Shown: piece by piece, positions 8,923 through 18,606 of the stretch | Layout: the number at the start of each line of letters is the position of its first letter | Position numbering within the stretch: position 1 is the stretch's first letter | From: an uncultured Fidelibacterota bacterium | GTDB lineage: Bacteria > Fidelibacterota > Marinisomatia > Marinisomatales > TCS55 | Reading direction: 5' to 3' | DNA length: 64,000 nt | Assembly (NCBI GenBank): GCA_913062595.1 | Contig: CAJXWT010000001.1 | Location: forward strand, 1-64,000 | Program-made: the position numbers and the translations under genes | The notes under the pieces: model-generated | Told to the model about the DNA's origin: nothing | The model's database searches: none | Seen by the model: the letters and a program-made list of their open reading frames with translations, nothing else

Positions 8923-10008
8923 ATGCCACTTGTACCTTCCTATATAAAAAATTTAGCCAGTTATAAACCCGGCTTACGGATCGATGATATTAAGCGTGAT
9001 AAGGGACTGGATCGAGTAATTAAACTTGCTTCCAATGAAAATTCCTTGGGCCCGGCACCGCTGGCAATTGCAGCAATAGAATCCGCCATGCAAAAAGTAA
9101 ATCGCTACCCTGATGCTTTTGGGATGGCACTACGCACTAAACTGGCAAAAAAATTCGATGTTAAAATAGAAAATGTAATAATTGGTGCCGGGTCGGAAGG
9201 CATAATCTCCAATATTTTGAGAACCTTTTTATTGGGTGATGATGAAATTGTGGCCGCTGCCGATTCGTTTATTGGTTTCCGGGTCCTGGCCAATGCAACT
9301 GGCCGTTCAATTCATTGGGTGCCAATGAAAAATCATCGCATTGATCTTGGTGACATTGCGGAAAAAATAAATGATTATACAAAGATCATTTACATTGCTA
9401 ATCCTGATAATCCTATGGGCACCTATATTACAAAAGAAGAATTTGATAAATTTTACGCACATGTCCCGGAACGTGTTTTGGTTATTCTTGATGAGGCTTA
9501 TTTTGAATTTGCAACGAATATAAAAGAATATCCTGATTCAATGAAATATCGATATGATAATGTCATTACGCTGCGAACCTTTTCAAAAGCATATGGACTT
9601 GCAGGATTACGGATAGGCTATGGATTTTCGCACGAAACACTTATTAGCAATTTGTTAAAGGTAAAGGTTCCTTTCGAACCGTCCTATTTTGCCCAGGTTG
9701 CAGGCTGTGCTGCATTGGATGATAACGAATTCATGGAAAAAACAATTGAATTAAATAAAAATGAAATGTCAAAAATTGAAAGTAGCATAGATGAACTTGG
9801 TGTCACCCGTATTCCCTCTGCTACAAATTTTGTAACTACTTTCTGGGAATCAGAAGAAAAAGCAAAAAGCATAGCAGAAAAATTGTTGGATGAAGGTATA
9901 ATTGTCCGTCAGTTAAATGCATTTGGTTGGCCGGAATACATTCGGATATCTATTGGTTTGGAACATGAAAATGACCAGTTTATTCAAACATTGGCATCGA
10001 TTATTTAA
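8923..10008 (+). CDS. HisC-type aminotransferase, probably acting on aromatic amino acids
   Basis: A PLP-dependent class I/II aminotransferase of 361 residues most like histidinol-phosphate aminotransferase. The PLP-binding lysine is K222 in TFSKAYGLAGLRIGYG, the aspartate lies in LDEAYFEF, and IANPDNPMG is the cofactor-binding asparagine loop. HisC-like enzymes often accept tyrosine and phenylalanine. It is the first gene of an operon whose next member is 4-hydroxyphenylpyruvate dioxygenase (9 bases away), and no histidine biosynthesis genes are near. I therefore infer that it makes 4-hydroxyphenylpyruvate from tyrosine. A true HisC function cannot be excluded without assays or a genome-wide search for another hisC. 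Confidence 0.85.
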   Translation: MPLVPSYIKNLASYKPGLRIDDIKRDKGLDRVIKLASNENSLGPAPLAIAAIESAMQKVNRYPDAFGMALRTKLAKKFDVKIENVIIGAGSEGIISNILRTFLLGDDEIVAAADSFIGFRVLANATGRSIHWVPMKNHRIDLGDIAEKINDYTKIIYIANPDNPMGTYITKEEFDKFYAHVPERVLVILDEAYFEFATNIKEYPDSMKYRYDNVITLRTFSKAYGLAGLRIGYGFSHETLISNLLKVKVPFEPSYFAQVAGCAALDDNEFMEKTIELNKNEMSKIESSIDELGVTRIPSATNFVTTFWESEEKAKSIAEKLLDEGIIVRQLNAFGWPEYIRISIGLEHENDQFIQTLASII

Positions 10009-10017
10009 TTATTTGAA

Positions 10018-11106
10018 ATGAATAGTTATTCTATAAATGGTTTTGATCATTGTGAACTTTATGTGAGTAATGCCAAACAAGCAGCGCATTATTACCGCAC
10101 TGCACTGGGGTTTTTACCAATCGCCTATTCCGGACTAGAAACAGGTTCTAGAGACCGCGTGAGTTACGTATTGAAGCAAAATCAAGTGCGATTTATTTTA
10201 ACCTCCCCCCTGGAAAATAATTCAGAAATTGGCACGCACATCTATACTCATGGAGATGGCATTAAAGATGTATCGTTTACCGTAGACAATGCAGAAGCAG
10301 CATGGGAAGAATCCACCACCCGTGGGGCAGAGAGTATATTAAAACCAAAATTATTAACTGATGATCGTGGTGAAGCCGTAGTAGCCACTATTAAGGCGTT
10401 TGGTGATACTACCCACACATTTGTTCAAAGGAATAATTATGATGGTGTATTTCTTCCTGGATACACGGTCTTTGAGGAAGATGTACTGGCTGAACCAACA
10501 GGTCTAGTACATATAGATCATGTTGTTGGAAACCAATCAGATGGTGAAATGGAATCGGTTTGCAACTTTTATGAAAAGGTGTTTGGCTGGCACCGTTTCT
10601 GGTCAGTGGATGATAAAGATATTACTACAGAATTCTCTGCATTACGGTCCACTGTAATGGCAAACGACAATGAAACAATCAAAATGCCCATTAATGAACC
10701 GGCAGATGGTTTGAAAAAATCACAAATTCAGGAATTCATCGATTACTACAAAAGTGCGGGGATACAACATGTGGCAATGTCAACAAAGGATATAATTAAA
10801 ACAGTCACAAAACTACGAAAAAATAGCGTGGAATTTCTCGATGTACCAAAAACCTATTATGAATCACTAACCGATAGAGTCGGTGAAATTGATGAAGACA
10901 TAGCTGTGCTTAAAGAGCTTGGTATCCTGGTTGATAAAGATAATAATGGGTATATGCTGCAGATTTTTACAAAACCAATCCAGGATCGGCCCACACTTTT
11001 CTATGAAATTATTCAACGGAGAGGTTCCAATAGTTTCGGTAAAGGTAATTTTAAAGCACTTTTTGAATCCATTGAAAGTGAGCAGGAAAAACGTGGTAAC
11101 CTCTAA
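10018..11106 (+). CDS. hpd: 4-hydroxyphenylpyruvate dioxygenase
   Basis: A 362-residue non-heme iron dioxygenase that turns 4-hydroxyphenylpyruvate into homogentisate. Two vicinal-oxygen-chelate domains are visible. The iron ligands are H168 (in HIDHVVGN), H251 (in IQHVAMST) and E330 (in YEIIQRRG), each in the classic HPPD context. The C-terminal segment FGKGNFKALFESIE near 340-355 is also typical and forms the lid helix region. The length matches the family. It lies between the aminotransferase and the FAH-family hydrolase, the correct order for tyrosine breakdown. Confidence 0.97.
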   Translation: MNSYSINGFDHCELYVSNAKQAAHYYRTALGFLPIAYSGLETGSRDRVSYVLKQNQVRFILTSPLENNSEIGTHIYTHGDGIKDVSFTVDNAEAAWEESTTRGAESILKPKLLTDDRGEAVVATIKAFGDTTHTFVQRNNYDGVFLPGYTVFEEDVLAEPTGLVHIDHVVGNQSDGEMESVCNFYEKVFGWHRFWSVDDKDITTEFSALRSTVMANDNETIKMPINEPADGLKKSQIQEFIDYYKSAGIQHVAMSTKDIIKTVTKLRKNSVEFLDVPKTYYESLTDRVGEIDEDIAVLKELGILVDKDNNGYMLQIFTKPIQDRPTLFYEIIQRRGSNSFGKGNFKALFESIESEQEKRGNL

Positions 11107-11144
11107 CAGTGCAACTGAAAATAAATGAGAACAGTTTTTAATTC

Positions 11145-12128
11145 ATGAAATTTGTTACATATACGAATATTGATGATGAGAAGCCACGTTTTGGAATTAA
11201 GCGCGACGATGAGATCGTTGATGTAATCCGGTCAGCCATATGGGTAAACGAAAATAATAAAGACGCGACCTTCCTGACCATTCCAACAACCATAAAACTT
11301 GCTTTGGGTAATTGGGATATAAATTTCTCAAAATTGAAAGGACTCAATCAGGCTATTCCAGATTCAGATTTGTCATCACTGGAAGCGAACGGAAAACCAA
11401 TCGCAATAAAAGAAAGTGAAGCTAGTTTATTACCACCTGTTCCTAATCCAGATACGTTTCGCGATTTTTATGCATTCGAGCAACATGTTAAAGCAGCACG
11501 GAAGTTGCGTGGAATGGAAATGCATCCAGACTGGTATAAAATACCAATCTTCTATTTTTCGAATCCGACGACTTTATATGGCCATGGGGAAAATGTACCC
11601 TACCCAATCGGAACAAAAGAACTGGATTTTGAATTAGAATTTGCAATTATCATCGCTAACGGCGGAAAAGATATAAAAAAAGAAAATGCAGATAAAATGA
11701 TCGCTGGATATACAATCTTGAATGACTGGTCAGCACGAGATTTGCAGCGCGAAGAAATGCAACTGAATTTGGGGCCAGCAAAGGGTAAAGACTTTGCGAA
11801 TAGTTTTGGTCCTTATATGGTAACACCGGATGAATTAACAGATGCTTGGGATAACAATAAGTTGCATTTACGGATGACTTGTCATGTTAATGGGAAACTC
11901 ATTTCAGATGGTAATACAAATGATCTGTACCATTCTTTTCCCACTATGATCGAAAGAGCCAGTATGAATGTTGATTTACGACCGGGAGATTATATTGGAT
12001 CAGGAACTGTCGGGACAGGTTGTATTCTTGAATTGAGACCTGAGTCAACTGGCGGTTGGCTCAAGAAGGGGGATGCAGTACGTCTAGAAATTGAACATAT
12101 AGGTGTTTTAGAGAATACAATCGTATAA
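11145..12128 (+). CDS. Fumarylacetoacetate hydrolase family protein
   Basis: A 327-residue FAH-fold hydrolase, the presumed last step of the pathway, which splits fumarylacetoacetate into fumarate and acetoacetate. The pattern D107-F-Y109...H114 reproduces the Asp/Tyr/catalytic His spacing of mammalian FAH. E163-L-E165 and D194 (NDWSARDLQ) supply the divalent-metal site. GKDFANSFGPYMVTPDEL and PGDYIGSGTVGTG are the expected later motifs. It is shorter than animal FAH (about 420) because it lacks the N-terminal SH3-like domain, as in many bacterial members. Because the FAH family is broad, the substrate is assigned from its neighbours hpd and hmgA. Confidence 0.93.
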   Translation: MKFVTYTNIDDEKPRFGIKRDDEIVDVIRSAIWVNENNKDATFLTIPTTIKLALGNWDINFSKLKGLNQAIPDSDLSSLEANGKPIAIKESEASLLPPVPNPDTFRDFYAFEQHVKAARKLRGMEMHPDWYKIPIFYFSNPTTLYGHGENVPYPIGTKELDFELEFAIIIANGGKDIKKENADKMIAGYTILNDWSARDLQREEMQLNLGPAKGKDFANSFGPYMVTPDELTDAWDNNKLHLRMTCHVNGKLISDGNTNDLYHSFPTMIERASMNVDLRPGDYIGSGTVGTGCILELRPESTGGWLKKGDAVRLEIEHIGVLENTIV

Positions 12129-12134
12129 TTCAAG

Positions 12135-13280
12135 ATGCCATTCTATCAACAAAGAGGTCAATTACCTGAAAAAAGGCATATCCAATTTCGGGATAAGGAT
12201 GGAAATTTATATTATGAAGAGCTGATAAGCCGTGAAGGATTTAGTTCATTATATTCAAATGTTTACCATCTTAATCCGCCTACCGATGTAACAAATATAG
12301 GGGAATTACATAAACTTAATAGGAAAGCTTGGATTGACACGCACCGACATCACCACATCAGATCTTTTAACTTAGAATCCTCAGGTGATGCCATCAGTTC
12401 TCGAGTGTCATTATTCTACAATAATGATGTTGAACTACACACTGCTCATGTTGAAGAGTCCATGAACAGTTTCTACCGCAATGGGCATCATGACGAAGTC
12501 ATATTTATTCAAAATGGTAATGGCATGCTATATTCAAACTTTGGCAACCTTGAATTGAATAAAGGTGACTATGTAGTAATTCCTCGCGGTGTGGTCTGGC
12601 AAATGACTATCCAGGAAACAATGAGACAATTTATAATTGAAACCAATGGTCCCTTAGAAACTCCAGTGAAATATCGTAACAGGCATGGACAGCTATTAGA
12701 ACATGCACCGTACAGTGAACGTGACATCCGCGCACCGGAGTTTGTAATTCCGCAAGTAAATGGGCCAGTAACAGTAAATTTGAAATTGGTGAATGGTTAT
12801 CAAACTTATGAGTACGCCAACCATCCCTGCGATTTAGTTGGTTGGGATGGGTATTATTATCCCTGGGTATTCAATATCAATGATTTTATGCCAATAACAG
12901 GTAAGATCCATCAACCCCCACCAGTTCATCAGACTTTCCAGGCTCCCGGTTTAGTTATATGTTCATTTGTACCGAGATTATTTGATTATCACCCTGAAGC
13001 TATTCCCGCACCTTATGCGCATAGCAATGTTGATTCTGACGAAATTCTATATTACGCAGAAGGTGAATTCATGAGCAGAAAAGGTATCGGAGAAGGTTCG
13101 ATCACTTTTCACCCTGCCGGTCTACCCCATGGCCCCCAACCCGGTAAGATTGAAGAATCCATTGGCAAAAAGGAAACAAACGAGCTTGCGGTTATGGTAG
13201 ATACATTTCAGCCGTTGACAATCACTACTGCCGCCAAAGCAGCAGATGATAAAGATTATCCTTTATCCTGGAATCAATGA
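12135..13280 (+). CDS. hmgA: Homogentisate 1,2-dioxygenase (short bacterial type)
   Basis: A 381-residue bicupin dioxygenase that opens homogentisate to maleylacetoacetate. The N-terminus (MPFYQQRGQLPEKRHIQF) and the C-terminal segment KETNELAVMVDTFQPL follow the shorter type found in FCB-group bacteria rather than the roughly 430-residue proteobacterial/animal type. Likely iron ligands are H296 and E303 (HSNVDSDE) and H332 (GLPHGP), in the second cupin. The context fits: FAH-like gene 6 bases upstream, flavin reductase overlapping by 4 bases (ATGA) downstream. No maleylacetoacetate isomerase gene is present in this operon. Confidence 0.92.
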   Translation: MPFYQQRGQLPEKRHIQFRDKDGNLYYEELISREGFSSLYSNVYHLNPPTDVTNIGELHKLNRKAWIDTHRHHHIRSFNLESSGDAISSRVSLFYNNDVELHTAHVEESMNSFYRNGHHDEVIFIQNGNGMLYSNFGNLELNKGDYVVIPRGVVWQMTIQETMRQFIIETNGPLETPVKYRNRHGQLLEHAPYSERDIRAPEFVIPQVNGPVTVNLKLVNGYQTYEYANHPCDLVGWDGYYYPWVFNINDFMPITGKIHQPPPVHQTFQAPGLVICSFVPRLFDYHPEAIPAPYAHSNVDSDEILYYAEGEFMSRKGIGEGSITFHPAGLPHGPQPGKIEESIGKKETNELAVMVDTFQPLTITTAAKAADDKDYPLSWNQ

Positions 13281-13897
13281 TTATTGACCCTGAGAATTCA
13301 TCCTTCCAAGATAATCATAAAATTATGATTGGCTCAATATTACCGCGACCAATTGCATTTGTTTCCACCCAATCCAAAGATGGAAACTACAATTTGGCAC
13401 CATTTTCCTATTTTAATGGTATCTGTTCCAACCCTCCTTCAATCATGTTCGCACCTGGTCGCCGTGGATACGATGGTAAAACAAAAGATACGCTGAATAA
13501 TATTGAGTCCACCGGCGAATTTGTAGTTAATATTGTTTCAGAAGATTTTGCAGAACAGATGGTGGCTTGTGCCACTGATTTCGAACCTGAAATAAATGAA
13601 TTTACCGTTTCTGGTCTAACACCAGAAACATGTATAAAAATTTCACCACCCCGCGTTCAGGAAGCACGGATTAGTTATGAGTGTAAACTGAACCAGATCG
13701 TACCTGTTGGTAATGAAGGACCGGGTGGCGGATTTGTGGTGATCGGCACAGTTGTACTTTTTCACATTGATGATGAAGTATACGATGATGGACGTATCAA
13801 TCTGGATAAATTAAATCCCGTCGGACGCCTGGCGGGACACACCTATTCCAGAACAAAAGATACGTTTGAAATAATAAGAAAAATCAAGCCGGATTAG
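13277..13897 (+). CDS. Flavin reductase-like domain protein (flavoredoxin/DIM6 family)
   Basis: A 206-residue FMN-binding split-barrel protein. The opening segment (IMIGSILPRPIAFVSTQSKDG, then NLAPFSYFNGICSNPP) is the standard FMN phosphate-binding part of the flavin reductase-like family, and GRLAGHTYSR near 187-196 is the usual C-terminal signature. Such proteins reduce flavins for partner oxygenases or act as flavoproteins themselves. None of the dioxygenases here needs flavin, so the role in tyrosine breakdown is unknown; it may protect or reactivate iron enzymes, or serve an unlinked reaction. Its ATG overlaps the hmgA stop (ATGA), implying translational coupling. Confidence 0.9.
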   Translation: MIIDPENSSFQDNHKIMIGSILPRPIAFVSTQSKDGNYNLAPFSYFNGICSNPPSIMFAPGRRGYDGKTKDTLNNIESTGEFVVNIVSEDFAEQMVACATDFEPEINEFTVSGLTPETCIKISPPRVQEARISYECKLNQIVPVGNEGPGGGFVVIGTVVLFHIDDEVYDDGRINLDKLNPVGRLAGHTYSRTKDTFEIIRKIKPD

Positions 13898-13906
13898 ATC
13901 CAAACC

Positions 13907-14836
13907 ATGTCTGAAGCACTTTCAGACCGAATTTACCAGGCCCAATGCATGGGCAATATTGAACCGATCGAATTCATGGTACCCTACCCTAATATATATT
14001 CATTAATAGAGGGAGAGAATGTCAAGTACAGCCATCAGGTTTTATTTACCGATTATAACCTAACTAATAAGGATTTTCTTCGGCTGGTCCACCAAGGTGC
14101 GAATTGGTTAAGAGAAAATGGTTTACAGCCAAAAGAAAGGGTATTTATCCATGACTTAGAATATCCAATGGCCGAAATAATTGCATTCAGTATTTGGGCA
14201 TATGGCGCAACAGTTATTCTTGCAAGCTCAACCTCGGGGAAAAAAGATTTAAATGGAATAAAACCTTCATTCGTAGTTAACGCAACTAATTGCCCATCTA
14301 TAGAATCGCTGACAAACTATTCAACGGAATTCATACCCACTTTCAGGCCCGCATTGCTTCATGAAGCGTTAATATATTGTGTTGCAGATAAAATAATTCA
14401 GCTTAGTCACTATAATCTTTTGGTAAATACGAATGGATTGCAAAAATACTTAGGGTTAAATAGAGATGATACATTCCTTGTAAAACTTGCGCCAGAATCA
14501 ACAGCCTGGGCAGTGCTACAACTTCTATTACCTTTGTATGCAGCGGCATCTATTACAAGTAATAATCCAAAAATAATTTTTGGGATGGAAGGTCAGTTTG
14601 ACAATCCGGATTATATTATCAAAATGGAGTGGGCAGAAATTTCCAAAGAGAAAAATATTATTTTTATTCTTCCAGAAAATACAGCTGTATTATCTATCGG
14701 GGATAAGCCAATACACATGACAGCCATTGAAAAACGAAATAAAAAAATGAAGATTAATGGTCATTCTGTTATGATGGGTTATCTGAATGAGAAAAATAAT
14801 GAAACAGTATTTCGCAATAAAGGATTGGTGATATAG
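13907..14836 (+). CDS. Degenerate AMP-binding (ANL superfamily) protein lacking the P-loop
   Basis: A 309-residue protein that reads as a shrunken acyl-CoA synthetase/AMP-binding enzyme. An ANL-like N-terminal part is visible (NKDFLRLVHQGANWLRENGL, then GYGATV-like WAYGATVIL near 100). The central piece ALIYCVADKIIQLSHYNLL lines up with the family's ALI-YTSGTTGxPK-xVxLSHxNLL, but the glycine/threonine-rich ATP-binding loop is missing. The end VMMGYLNEKNNETVFRNKG resembles the VMLGYxNxPEAT...F segment, after which the whole C-terminal lid domain is absent. Adenylation seems impossible, so it is either a pseudoenzyme or a decayed gene. The open frame and position 9 bases after the flavin reductase gene argue that it is still expressed. 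This homology is read by eye. Confidence 0.65.
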   Translation: MSEALSDRIYQAQCMGNIEPIEFMVPYPNIYSLIEGENVKYSHQVLFTDYNLTNKDFLRLVHQGANWLRENGLQPKERVFIHDLEYPMAEIIAFSIWAYGATVILASSTSGKKDLNGIKPSFVVNATNCPSIESLTNYSTEFIPTFRPALLHEALIYCVADKIIQLSHYNLLVNTNGLQKYLGLNRDDTFLVKLAPESTAWAVLQLLLPLYAAASITSNNPKIIFGMEGQFDNPDYIIKMEWAEISKEKNIIFILPENTAVLSIGDKPIHMTAIEKRNKKMKINGHSVMMGYLNEKNNETVFRNKGLVI

Positions 14837-14841
14837 AGTAT

Positions 14842-15591
14842 TTATTCTAAATGTTCCTCAACATATTGCAGCATTTTTGTTTGGATACTTAGATATCCCA
14901 ATCTCGTTTCGATATTTATAAAGCGTACGCCCTTTCGAGCGACGAACCAGGATAGCGATCCATTGTCTTTCTTCGGCTGTGTTTCTTGTAAAACAACATT
15001 ATAAGGGGATTTAGACAATAAATTATAATCATCCCGATTAGTACATATAAAAAAATTATGGTGATGGGGATGCTCACTATTTTTCAGTGATACTTCTGTA
15101 CTAAAAGGAATTTCTTTATCTATAGAATAATCACGAAGATTATTATGTAAAGCAATTAACAATCCTCCATTTGGAGGGGTGATTTTATCAAAAAACTTTT
15201 CTTTATCATTAGCGATTAAATTGACCAATTGATCAACAGCCGGTTTTGAAATTTTGTCATTAAATTTAATCAAATTTTTCTCCGCCCCTGCTTTCGAGAA
15301 AATTCGATTAGGATCCATCATATAACCATTAATAAAAACTTCCCGATTATTATTCTCGATAAGAAAGGCTGTGCCGTAATTATCTTTCAAATGGCGTTTT
15401 AGTAGCACTGCAGCAGTTTTTTCATCACCATGAATCCATATAAAGCGTCGATTAGATTCACCGTTTTTTATTACCTTGAACTGAACACCAGCTATATCAA
15501 CATATTCCTGAGCCAAATCATTACTATAAATATTGAAAGTAAATAAAAATCCGATGAAAATAATAAAATATTGATATTTCACTATGCTCAA
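14842..15591 (-). CDS. Secreted M14-like (zinc carboxypeptidase/amidase fold) protein
   Basis: A 249-residue protein with an N-terminal signal sequence (hydrophobic residues about 8-22). Four motifs together suggest a compact M14-type zinc hydrolase: H54-G-D-E57 (metal-binding HxxE), D93-P-N-R96-I-F (like the DxNRxF substrate-binding motif), H149 in LLIALHNN (third metal ligand) and E228 in FINIETRLG (catalytic glutamate). The family contains carboxypeptidases, succinylglutamate desuccinylase/aspartoacylase and murein amidases. The substrate here is unknown; a periplasmic peptide or murein substrate is plausible. It is last in a minus-strand run of four genes, 11 bases after the ornithine-cyclodeaminase-like gene. 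The assignment rests on motifs, so it is moderate. Confidence 0.6.
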   Translation of the reverse strand: MSIVKYQYFIIFIGFLFTFNIYSNDLAQEYVDIAGVQFKVIKNGESNRRFIWIHGDEKTAAVLLKRHLKDNYGTAFLIENNNREVFINGYMMDPNRIFSKAGAEKNLIKFNDKISKPAVDQLVNLIANDKEKFFDKITPPNGGLLIALHNNLRDYSIDKEIPFSTEVSLKNSEHPHHHNFFICTNRDDYNLLSKSPYNVVLQETQPKKDNGSLSWFVARKGVRFINIETRLGYLSIQTKMLQYVEEHLE

Positions 15592-15602
15592 TAATTAACA
15601 GG

Positions 15603-16544
15603 TTAAATATATTTTAATACCGCCTTTGATATCTTTATATCCTGCACTGCTACACCAGTTAGATCTGCTACTGTAAGCTCAGAACTCGTTGTCCGCCCTT
15701 GCCGATCCCCATTGATAATCTCTCCCAGTTCTACGATAGAATCCATGGATACTTTTTTGTTTCTTATTGCATGATGAATTTCGCCGCGAACTTCACACTG
15801 TGATCTGCTATCCGCAATAATCAAGTCCGCTTTAGATAAAACATTAGTTTCAAGTTCTTGTTTATTGGGAGTATCAGAACCCATTGCAGTAATGTGAATT
15901 TTTCCTGTAATCTGGTCCTTTCTAATTAGTGGTTTTTCACTGGCAGTACAAGTAACAATCAAGTTGCAGTTATCAGTTACTTGTTCCAGGGCCATGGTTG
16001 TTTCAATAATAAAGTCGGTATCATCCATGCTGGTTTTATATTGATCCAGTGCTGATTCACTACGACCCCATACAATTGCGCTTCGGCAATCCGTTACATT
16101 TTTCAGATATTCCAGTTGCATGCGAGCTTGTATACCTGTTCCAATTATTCCAATTGTTTCAATATTGTTTGGAGCAAGGTACTTTGCACAAATTGCACCG
16201 GCCACTGCCGTACGAACATCGGTCAGATAACCTTCATCCTGCAAAAGACCAAGCGGTTTACCACTTTTTTGATCGAACACCAACATCATTCCTTGTCCAT
16301 TTGATAAACCAAGAAGTTTGTTTTGGTAAAATCCGGAGGCAATTTTGATCACATACACATCATCATCCCGAATGTATCCATATTTTATATGTACATCACC
16401 AGGAGGATGTTCAAAATTTAATTCTCCGACAGGTGGAACTACCACTTCGCCATTAGAATAAGCGCTGAACCCGGCTTCAATTTCCTGCATAAGGTCTATC
16501 TTGGGAAGTACCGCCTTTATCTCATCCAGGGATACGATTCTCAT
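15603..16544 (-). CDS. Ornithine cyclodeaminase/mu-crystallin family protein
   Basis: A 313-residue NAD(P)-dependent enzyme of the ornithine cyclodeaminase/mu-crystallin family. The N-terminal substrate part includes HIKYGYI (near 72-78) and DEGYLTDVRTAVAGAICAKYLAP (near 103-125). The Rossmann motif IGIIGTGIQARMQLEYL follows near 133-149. Members cyclise ornithine to proline or reduce ketimines and imino acids (for example EutC, alanine and lysine-derived imines), so the substrate cannot be named. Its ATG overlaps the stop of the threonine-dehydratase-like gene (ATGA). The pair of these two families resembles eutB-eutC of hydroxyectoine use, but the rest of that pathway is not seen. Confidence 0.88.
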   Translation of the reverse strand: MRIVSLDEIKAVLPKIDLMQEIEAGFSAYSNGEVVVPPVGELNFEHPPGDVHIKYGYIRDDDVYVIKIASGFYQNKLLGLSNGQGMMLVFDQKSGKPLGLLQDEGYLTDVRTAVAGAICAKYLAPNNIETIGIIGTGIQARMQLEYLKNVTDCRSAIVWGRSESALDQYKTSMDDTDFIIETTMALEQVTDNCNLIVTCTASEKPLIRKDQITGKIHITAMGSDTPNKQELETNVLSKADLIIADSRSQCEVRGEIHHAIRNKKVSMDSIVELGEIINGDRQGRTTSSELTVADLTGVAVQDIKISKAVLKYI

Positions 16545-17497
16545 GCCAATACTTCCCGTAATGTATTGGAACTAATATTCCCTCCGCATATAACGATAAC
16601 AACTGTTTTACCATTTAATTCAGTCTCTCTTTTCTTAAAAGCTGCAATTGCTGCGCCAGCTGACCCTTCAATCAATTGGTGGTGATCTTCCAGCCCATTA
16701 CGAATACCAGCTGCAATTTCATCCTCAGATAACAAAACAAAATCATTTATAATTTCTTTACATATTGCAAACGTAATGGAATTCTCTTCAACCCCGCCAG
16801 CCGTACCATCAGACAATGTTGGTTTTGATGGCAGATCCAAAATCGTTCCTGCCTGTAGGGACTCATACATAACGCAGGAATTTTTTGGAGAACAACCAAT
16901 CATTTCAAGGTTTGGCTGCACTGTTTTCAAATATCCACCTATTCCAGATATCAGACCGCCTCCACCTACAGCAACTATGACCGTATCAATATTGCTCAGA
17001 TCCTCATTTAGCTCTACACCCATTGTACCTTGACCTGCTATAATCATAGGATCGTTGTATGGAGATATGTATGTCGAACCCGTAGTCACAGAAATTTCCT
17101 GGGCACGTTGTTCTGCTTCAAGGCAATCATTGCCAAAATACTCAACGGTGCCGCCTAGATTTTTAATATTCTCTACTTTATTGGGCGCTATATTTTCAGG
17201 AACGATTATACTGCCACTTATGCCTAAAATTTTCATGCTAAGCGAAACTGCGGCTCCGTGATTACCGGTTGAGGCAGTTACAACACCTTTTTTTCTTTGT
17301 TTTTTATTGAGAGAAGTCATTTTACTAATGGCGCCACGGAATTTAAACGAACCTGTTTTTTGAATGTTATCCAGCTTTAGATAAACATCACCGTCAATGA
17401 TATTACTTAGTGATGGTGAATGGTCTAAAGGTGTCTTACGGATTATATTTTTCGAACGACTGTATGCAGCCTGTACTTCATCTGGAAAAGTAATCAT
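16541..17497 (-). CDS. Threonine/serine dehydratase-like PLP enzyme
   Basis: A 318-residue fold-type II PLP enzyme. The PLP lysine is K52 in GSFKFRGA, the asparagine loop is STGNHGAA near 84-91, and the glycine-rich phosphate site is VGGGGLISG near 175-183. There is no C-terminal ACT regulatory domain, so it is a catabolic or racemase-type member rather than biosynthetic IlvA. It could be a threonine/serine dehydratase, serine racemase, or a 3-hydroxy amino acid dehydratase such as EutB. It overlaps both neighbours by 4 bases, aminotransferase upstream and cyclodeaminase-like downstream. A diverged paralogue lies at 34999-35928. Confidence 0.88.
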   Translation of the reverse strand: MITFPDEVQAAYSRSKNIIRKTPLDHSPSLSNIIDGDVYLKLDNIQKTGSFKFRGAISKMTSLNKKQRKKGVVTASTGNHGAAVSLSMKILGISGSIIVPENIAPNKVENIKNLGGTVEYFGNDCLEAEQRAQEISVTTGSTYISPYNDPMIIAGQGTMGVELNEDLSNIDTVIVAVGGGGLISGIGGYLKTVQPNLEMIGCSPKNSCVMYESLQAGTILDLPSKPTLSDGTAGGVEENSITFAICKEIINDFVLLSEDEIAAGIRNGLEDHHQLIEGSAGAAIAAFKKRETELNGKTVVIVICGGNISSNTLREVLA

Positions 17498-18606
17498 AAT
17501 GTATTAAACACTCGATCAATTCTGTCCAATGCAACTTTTAGGTCATCCTGTTTCGCGCCATACCCAAAGCGGATATATCGATCCATACCATACCAGTCTC
17601 CAGCTACAAGCATTACACTCACCTCGTCCCGTACTTTTTCTACCAGTTTGGTTGAGTTTATATCAAATTCATAGTAGACAAATGCCATCGCACCTGCCTC
17701 GGGGGGGATGAACCGGAATCTACCTGGGCAGTGATCCAGCCATTTCTGAAACAGGTCGAGGTTCTTCCTTAAGGTGGTACGTGTTGCAGTAAGAATTTTT
17801 TTCCTGTTAGTTCGCTGGAGTACATGGGTCGCGATGGCATCACTTAATCTACCGACTGCAATGGATGTATAATCATGGGTCGCCCAAGCGTTTTGAATAT
17901 AATCCTCATTGGCAATTGACCAGCCCAGTCTCAAACCCGGTAAACCATACGCTTTTGATAATCCACAATTGACAATCGTCCTATCGTAGCCAATATCCCA
18001 GAAAGATGTGCATTCTTCCCCGGATAATTCCGCGCCACGATATACTTCATCCGCCAGAATCCACGCACCTGCCTGACGAGCTATATCACCAATTTCAAAA
18101 ACCATGTTCTTTGACAACACAGACCCAGTGGGATTATTGGGATTACAAATACAGATCATTTTTGTTTTACTCGAGACCAGGTTCTTGATCTCATCTAATT
18201 GCGGTTTCCAATTTAAGGATTCGTGCAAGTAAAATGGTTTTACATCAACACCAAGCCCTTTGGAAAATCCTTGAATTTGTAAATAATTAGGGACCATGTA
18301 TATCATTTCATCACCCGGTTCTAACAATGTTAAACAGGCAACCATATTGGCTTCGGCAGAACCATTAAAAACCTGAACATTATCTGGATTGGTTTTGTCA
18401 TAAATATCAGCAATTGCCTTACGCAGATTTAGGGACCCCTCTGTAAAACCATAAGTCAGTTCGGTATTATTTATCTTATCAACAAATTTTTTGTCAAACA
18501 GTGAATTTAATGAACCGGGATGTACACCACTTTCAGATAGATTATAATCAACTTTATTCTCCCAGATAGACTGCTGGCGTTCAAGCACAAATGTTTCGAA
18601 TCTCAT
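17494..18606 (-). CDS. Class I/II PLP-dependent aminotransferase
   Basis: A 370-residue fold-type I aminotransferase. The PLP lysine lies in GLSKAYGLPGLRLGW near residue 221-235, the cofactor loop is CNPNNPTGSV near 155-164, and LADEVYRGAEL supplies the aspartate. The N-terminus (NLSESGVHPGSLNSLF, then LTYGFTEGSLNLRKAIA) is typical of the aspartate/valine-type group used in amino-acid catabolism. The substrate is not evident. It heads a tightly overlapping three-gene set with a threonine-dehydratase-like and an ornithine-cyclodeaminase-like gene, which suggests one short pathway for a diamino, hydroxy- or cyclic amino acid. Confidence 0.88.
   Translation of the reverse strand: MRFETFVLERQQSIWENKVDYNLSESGVHPGSLNSLFDKKFVDKINNTELTYGFTEGSLNLRKAIADIYDKTNPDNVQVFNGSAEANMVACLTLLEPGDEMIYMVPNYLQIQGFSKGLGVDVKPFYLHESLNWKPQLDEIKNLVSSKTKMICICNPNNPTGSVLSKNMVFEIGDIARQAGAWILADEVYRGAELSGEECTSFWDIGYDRTIVNCGLSKAYGLPGLRLGWSIANEDYIQNAWATHDYTSIAVGRLSDAIATHVLQRTNRKKILTATRTTLRKNLDLFQKWLDHCPGRFRFIPPEAGAMAFVYYEFDINSTKLVEKVRDEVSVMLVAGDWYGMDRYIRFGYGAKQDDLKVALDRIDRVFNTL

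Follow-up and report, generated by a model that had tools for sequence, protein, structure and literature searches.

A putative ANL-derived pseudoenzyme of the tyrosine operon and its retention in one order of Marinimicrobia

In the acyl-CoA synthetases of the ANL superfamily, adenylation and CoA transfer rely on the P-loop, the A7 aspartate, the hinge and the C-terminal lid. The last gene of a tyrosine operon in the window (the whole stretch of 64,000 nucleotides analysed here) encodes a protein that resembles these enzymes and has lost these elements, which raises the question of whether it is a broken copy or a maintained one and, in the latter case, of what it is maintained for. A preliminary description of this DNA had proposed a maintained pseudoenzyme, with a decaying acetoacetyl-CoA synthetase as the plain alternative.

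The last gene of the tyrosine operon

Pfam and NCBIfam assignments give the following gene order.

8923..10008, plus strand: HisC-like aminotransferase (AT), head of the operon, gone with the pathway in several genomes (NCBIfam, orthologue search)
10018..11106, plus strand: 4-hydroxyphenylpyruvate dioxygenase (HPPD), TIGR01263 above cut-off
11145..12128, plus strand: fumarylacetoacetate hydrolase family protein (FAH) (Pfam, NCBIfam)
12135..13280, plus strand: homogentisate 1,2-dioxygenase-like protein (HGD) (Pfam, NCBIfam, orthologue search)
13277..13897, plus strand: flavin-reductase-like protein (FlavRed), PF01613, the most regular neighbour
13907..14836, plus strand: gene of the ANL-derived pseudoenzyme, short form, 309 aa, ATG start (ORF list, Pfam, homologue alignment, profile-profile comparison)

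The frame of the last gene is uninterrupted and starts 9 bp past the FlavRed stop at 13897, confirming the earlier view of an open gene packed with the operon. No maleylacetoacetate isomerase gene was found in the tyrosine operon (window 10018-13897); the product of ring cleavage may be isomerised by some other protein or undergo direct hydrolysis. Seven further PF00501 matches occur in the same genome, so that acyl activation is independent of the 13907-14836 protein.

Beyond the operon, the convergent neighbour of the pseudoenzyme gene (14842-15591, minus strand) is conserved in several genera of family f1, even in those without the operon. Its product has no Pfam or NCBIfam match; by eye, it seems to start with a signal peptide and carries an HGDE motif reminiscent of zinc enzymes of the aspartoacylase type. 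The consecutive genes at 15603-18606, also on the minus strand, encode an ornithine-cyclodeaminase-like protein, a threonine/serine-dehydratase-like protein (PRK06815 above cut-off) and an aminotransferase, with matches to the ectoine-breakdown models EutC and EutB that stay below the cut-offs of these models.

Descent from an acyl-CoA synthetase and probable order of the losses

The sole Pfam family matched by the 13907-14836 protein is AMP-binding (PF00501), at 32.7 bits against a curated cut-off of 29.9 and covering only aa 47-115, and NCBIfam gave no match. A profile of 22 homologues aligned end to end (99.5%, E 6e-23) with seven ANL rows, led by the full-length enzyme of a distant genome of the phylum (G122), and a PDB search with the family profile returned 46 sequences at E up to 0.1, all of them adenylation or acyl-ligase proteins. 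The window protein alone gave nothing meaningful in a phmmer search of the PDB, and a fold prediction from two rows only (the window protein and that of L039, 93% identical) reached a pLDDT of 33 and a pTM of 0.27, too low to be usable. Judged from these profiles, the protein is a descendant of the N-terminal domain of an acyl-CoA synthetase, and the ANL-likeness noted before is borne out. The more specific label of acetoacetyl-CoA synthetase is not supported, as no such model is found among the 25 best for the full-length relative in G122 and the window protein matches none in NCBIfam.

The N-terminal domain of ANL acyl-CoA synthetases (PF00501 + PF13193; e.g., oxalate-CoA ligase 5ie0 and fatty-acyl-CoA synthetase FadD13 3r44) is homologous along the whole short protein, which has in common with them the SHYNL helix after the P-loop, the A5 glutamate and A6, but lacks the P-loop, the A7 aspartate, the hinge, the lid and the A10 lysine, together with about 100 residues of the N-domain. 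The elements that can be located are given below.

13931..13993, plus strand: N-terminal signature (aa 9-29), IYQAQCMGNIEPIEFMVPYPN, near-invariant across the family; the long forms and the full-length enzyme of G122 (AQTVREIPPGDRLVPYTGIHDLL) show a recognisable version
14366..14422, plus strand: site of the lost A3 P-loop (aa 154-172), ALIYCVADKIIQLSHYNLL, aligned with YTSGTTGKPKG of G122; the flanks remain and the Ser/Thr/Gly loop is gone
14492..14509, plus strand: A4-equivalent PESTAW (aa 196-201), replacing LPIHHVNG of the full-length enzyme
14672..14689, plus strand: A5 remnant PENTAV (aa 256-261), an alignment-dependent assignment; Glu257 is invariant in the 22-row alignment
14759..14782, plus strand: A6 remnant GHSVMMGY (aa 285-292), likewise alignment-dependent

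Across the P-loop stretch, EALIYCVAD-----KIIQLSHYNLLVN aligns with KAFIVYTSGTTGKPKGVVLQQYNLLVD of G122: the flanks are kept, the loop is five residues shorter and the motif is absent, in agreement with the ALIY and LSHYNLL flanks and the shortened, family-unlike loop first recognised by eye. The A3 P-loop ([ST]SG[ST]TGxPKG) is absent from every short and long form aligned. The A7 aspartate (TGD), which holds the ribose in ANL enzymes, is replaced in the long forms, and the short form stops ahead of A7. As had been noted for the lid, the C-terminal domain (PF13193), with A8/A10 and the A10 lysine, is absent from the short protein according to Pfam and the alignment. Much of the stretch from A4 to A5, where ANL enzymes form their acyl pocket, is missing from the short form as well, and the glutamate of the A5 motif (xxTE) is present as Glu257, as far as the alignment of the short form allows it to be assigned.

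Several blocks (IYxAQCxGNxEPIExMxPYPN, LSHYNLLVN, STAW, ENTAV and GHSVMMGY) recur in about 60 short forms. Q13, E22, K40, W97, S167, N174, E257 and H286 are strongly invariant, in part in a lineage-specific manner; outside the N-terminus, the invariant residues are mostly shared with the full-length enzyme (the A5 glutamate, GH..M..Y of A6 and the helix after the P-loop). Since all short homologues are in the same state, neither chance nor an assembly error accounts for it, and the latter was rejected on the recurrence of the short form in about 60 genomes.

In G122, which lies elsewhere in the phylum, HPPD, FAH, HGD and FlavRed are followed by a full-length ANL enzyme.

L145 9275-10981, minus strand: full-length acyl-CoA synthetase of G122, 568 aa, with YTSGTTGKPKG, A5, A7 (SGD) and AMP-binding_C

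This enzyme shares with the short protein its operon position and the recognisable N-terminal signature, and differs from it in its intact P-loop, A5, A7 and AMP-binding_C. In NCBIfam it scores best, though below cut-off, with generic models of long-chain acyl-CoA ligases, and among solved structures oxalate-CoA ligases are its best relatives. A plasmid search with the same enzyme gave matches only below 60% identity, at 31-35% for the best among the matches listed. Between the two extremes, families f3, f4, f5 and f8 carry long forms of 350-428 aa, with no P-loop or lid, the A7 aspartate replaced, and A5 and A6 well kept; their profile, compared with those of the ANLs and of the short forms, gives E values of 4e-59 and 7e-43, respectively. 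The tree groups the short forms in a single clade (100/100) and places the full-length row with L113, which is reduced least among the long forms (96/90).

The simplest reading of this series looks like a loss of catalysis first and a shrinkage of the domain later. A full-length ANL enzyme placed last in the tyrosine operon, an ancestral state deduced from one metagenome-assembled genome (G122), would have lost the P-loop, the A7 aspartate and the lid in one Marinimicrobia order, giving rise to proteins of 350-428 aa, and these would later have shrunk to about 305 aa, losing much of the ANL acyl-pocket region. A few altered residues are usually what identifies a pseudoenzyme; in this case, forms of full, intermediate and minimal length all survive in living lineages, mostly at the same operon position, so that one can read directly in which order the parts went (the loop, A7 and the lid before the middle of the domain).

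Retention inside and outside the operon

The gene was sought in 101 related Marinimicrobia genomes, mostly incomplete metagenome assemblies, and is present in 79 of them, 77 by direct protein match, with G043 and G055 added via the long-form profile. Carriers span 14 families of one order, to which the pseudoenzyme family appears confined as far as searched (one phylum in depth), and family f15, with genomes near 0.9 Mb, is without the gene as a group. No in-frame stops occur among the matches listed; a phylum-wide search showed one in G145. Beside hmgA, sister genomes carry the short form and not a full-length gene, the only full-length copy found belonging to another class of the phylum. The nearest sister, L039 (93% identical), was the single close one found in the contig scan.

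Genome G003 (contigs C33 and C82) shows a mismatch of identities: FlavRed and the pseudoenzyme are 99% and 93% identical, respectively, to those of the window, and for HGD, HPPD and AT, which lie on a different contig, identity is no more than 65-69%. This could reflect a second copy of the operon, a replacement or mis-binning.

Most pairs of the pseudoenzyme gene have an NG86 dN/dS of about 0.06-0.27 (0.22 between the window copy and the 93% sister), somewhat higher than for HGD, FAH and FlavRed (about 0.03-0.2), with 0.08-0.25 for sfsA, all of these figures being indicative because many dS values are saturated. Where the operon is not beside the gene, values of 0.09 (g8) and 0.13-0.16 (f9) were obtained, and one long-form pair gave 0.48 at a dS of 0.07, with few changes. 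Values well below 1, together with the short form beside HGD in sister genomes, support the proposal of a maintained pseudoenzyme. The loss of P-loop and lid, and a dN/dS above that of the operon neighbours, might be taken to indicate plain decay, that is, a broken acyl-CoA synthetase en route to loss; this is very improbable for a gene that is carried by 79 genomes of 14 families, free of stops among the matches listed, mostly at a dN/dS of 0.06-0.27, and that outlives the rest of the operon when the operon decays. Plain decay is already largely refuted by this retention.

Orthologues of HGD, FlavRed, tyrosine phenol-lyase, HPPD and AT were sought in the same 101 genomes, and the first four were tabulated against the pseudoenzyme. 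Both HPPD and HGD are missing from 27 of the 79 carriers, ten of them at least 90% complete; nine of the 27 keep FlavRed, six have tyrosine phenol-lyase and 12 have neither. These 12 include all five sampled g8 carriers, G057 and G054 (92-93% complete). The gene is solitary in g8, f9 and G057, where the chromosomal neighbours are otherwise conserved, and in G028, G017, G020, G058 and G079 short AT or HGD remnants lie just upstream of intact FlavRed and pseudoenzyme genes. HPPD, HGD or FlavRed occur with no pseudoenzyme match in G006, G023 and G032, where the operon is cut by a contig end in each; apart from these, none of the 101 genomes with any of the three is shown to miss the pseudoenzyme. 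The suggested role in tyrosine catabolism stands in so far as the gene mostly sits in the operon, but a role confined to this pathway is not supported, taking into account the 27 carriers without HPPD and HGD. The best explanation is that the tyrosine operon is the place of origin and usual site of the pseudoenzyme, and not its whole role.

FlavRed lies next to the pseudoenzyme on the same strand in 55 of 55 loci, within 100 bp in 44, and in f6 and most f8 loci the stop and start codons of the two genes overlap by 4 bp. The first candidate for a partner is FlavRed, to which the pseudoenzyme is often translationally coupled; FlavRed cannot be the sole one, because the pseudoenzyme gene outlives it, and as an obligate partner it was rejected (21 of the 79 carriers have no FlavRed orthologue). 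The aminotransferase was also rejected as an obligate partner, having no orthologue in G012, G017, G019, G020, G024, G028, G040, G047, G051, G057, G058 and G061. None of the partners examined persists in every carrier.

Families f2, f12 and f13 include six genomes with no HPPD or HGD in which the pseudoenzyme gene lies directly behind tyrosine phenol-lyase on the same strand (TIGR02618 above cut-off in the three tested), preceded by genes resembling those of homoserine dehydrogenase, methionine gamma-lyase and aldehyde dehydrogenase. In L050, L078, L083, L092 and L094 (G040, G051, G062, G068 and G061, respectively), the row is homoserine dehydrogenase, methionine gamma-lyase, aldehyde dehydrogenase, tyrosine phenol-lyase and pseudoenzyme, with gene names taken from L078 and the other loci assigned by similarity. 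The tree test does not reject a single origin of this linkage (p-AU 0.21), and independent repeated recruitment was therefore discarded. The linkage hints at a tie with tyrosine, but may represent one event.

Possible functions of the remnant

As in pseudoenzymes in general, the catalytic residues are lost while the gene is conserved, in this case under purifying selection. A protein without P-loop, A7 aspartate, hinge and lid is not expected to catalyse adenylation or CoA transfer, and the short protein would be unable to adenylate a carboxylate or form a CoA ester. The reading we favour, with some confidence and from sequence comparison, is that of a binding or adaptor protein of ANL descent, catalytically dead and maintained, a stand-alone remnant of the N-domain. 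The conserved parts are the N-terminal signature and the elements that lined the former cleft. Retention would occur through binding, of a protein partner more probably than of an aryl acid, with the protein acting as an adaptor or regulator; binding of an aryl acid in the inherited pocket appears less likely, because much of the A4-A5 region is deleted in the short form. The role is probably non-catalytic and previously undescribed: the open-access literature searched gave no description of a stand-alone ANL-derived pseudoenzyme, which is weak evidence of absence, and neither this gene nor an ANL pseudoenzyme of tyrosine catabolism turned up in it.

Two other explanations deserve consideration. 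The strong and partly lineage-specific invariant residues, the room left for an isomerase by an operon with no obvious maleylacetoacetate isomerase, and the position of the gene beside two non-homologous tyrosine-degrading routes (HPPD-HGD and tyrosine phenol-lyase) would fit a neofunctionalised enzyme with an ATP-independent activity, e.g., hydrolysis or isomerisation of an aromatic-breakdown intermediate. However, most invariant residues beyond the N-terminus are also found in the full-length enzyme, and the gene is kept in 12 genomes without either route, so that it does not encode an isomerase needed only for that pathway; a new activity is considered unlikely. Still more doubtful is a pathway-specific accessory, binding tyrosine, 4-hydroxyphenylpyruvate, homogentisate or phenol, and tuning or feeding an upstream tyrosine-degrading enzyme. 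Such a protein might be expected behind HPPD-FAH-HGD-FlavRed, where the gene is found in most genomes, or directly after tyrosine phenol-lyase, as in the six genomes of three families, but not in the 12 carriers without HPPD, HGD, FlavRed and tyrosine phenol-lyase; furthermore, little of the acyl-pocket region remains in the short form, and the phenol-lyase linkage may count as one event.

As a probable catalytically dead binding or adaptor protein, the pseudoenzyme is a case in which neighbourhood alone would suggest the wrong function, the gene being the longest survivor of its operon. A broader proposal, which we advance tentatively, is that a new protein family has arisen here, in which a synthetase was stripped stepwise to a 300-residue core that would now serve as a general regulator or adaptor, or have a new ATP-independent activity. 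If this is true, the core would be important enough to outlast repeated deletion of the operon, and would also stand behind a second, unrelated tyrosine-degrading enzyme. The pseudoenzyme is thereby a clear target for learning what a dead acyl-CoA synthetase is good for.
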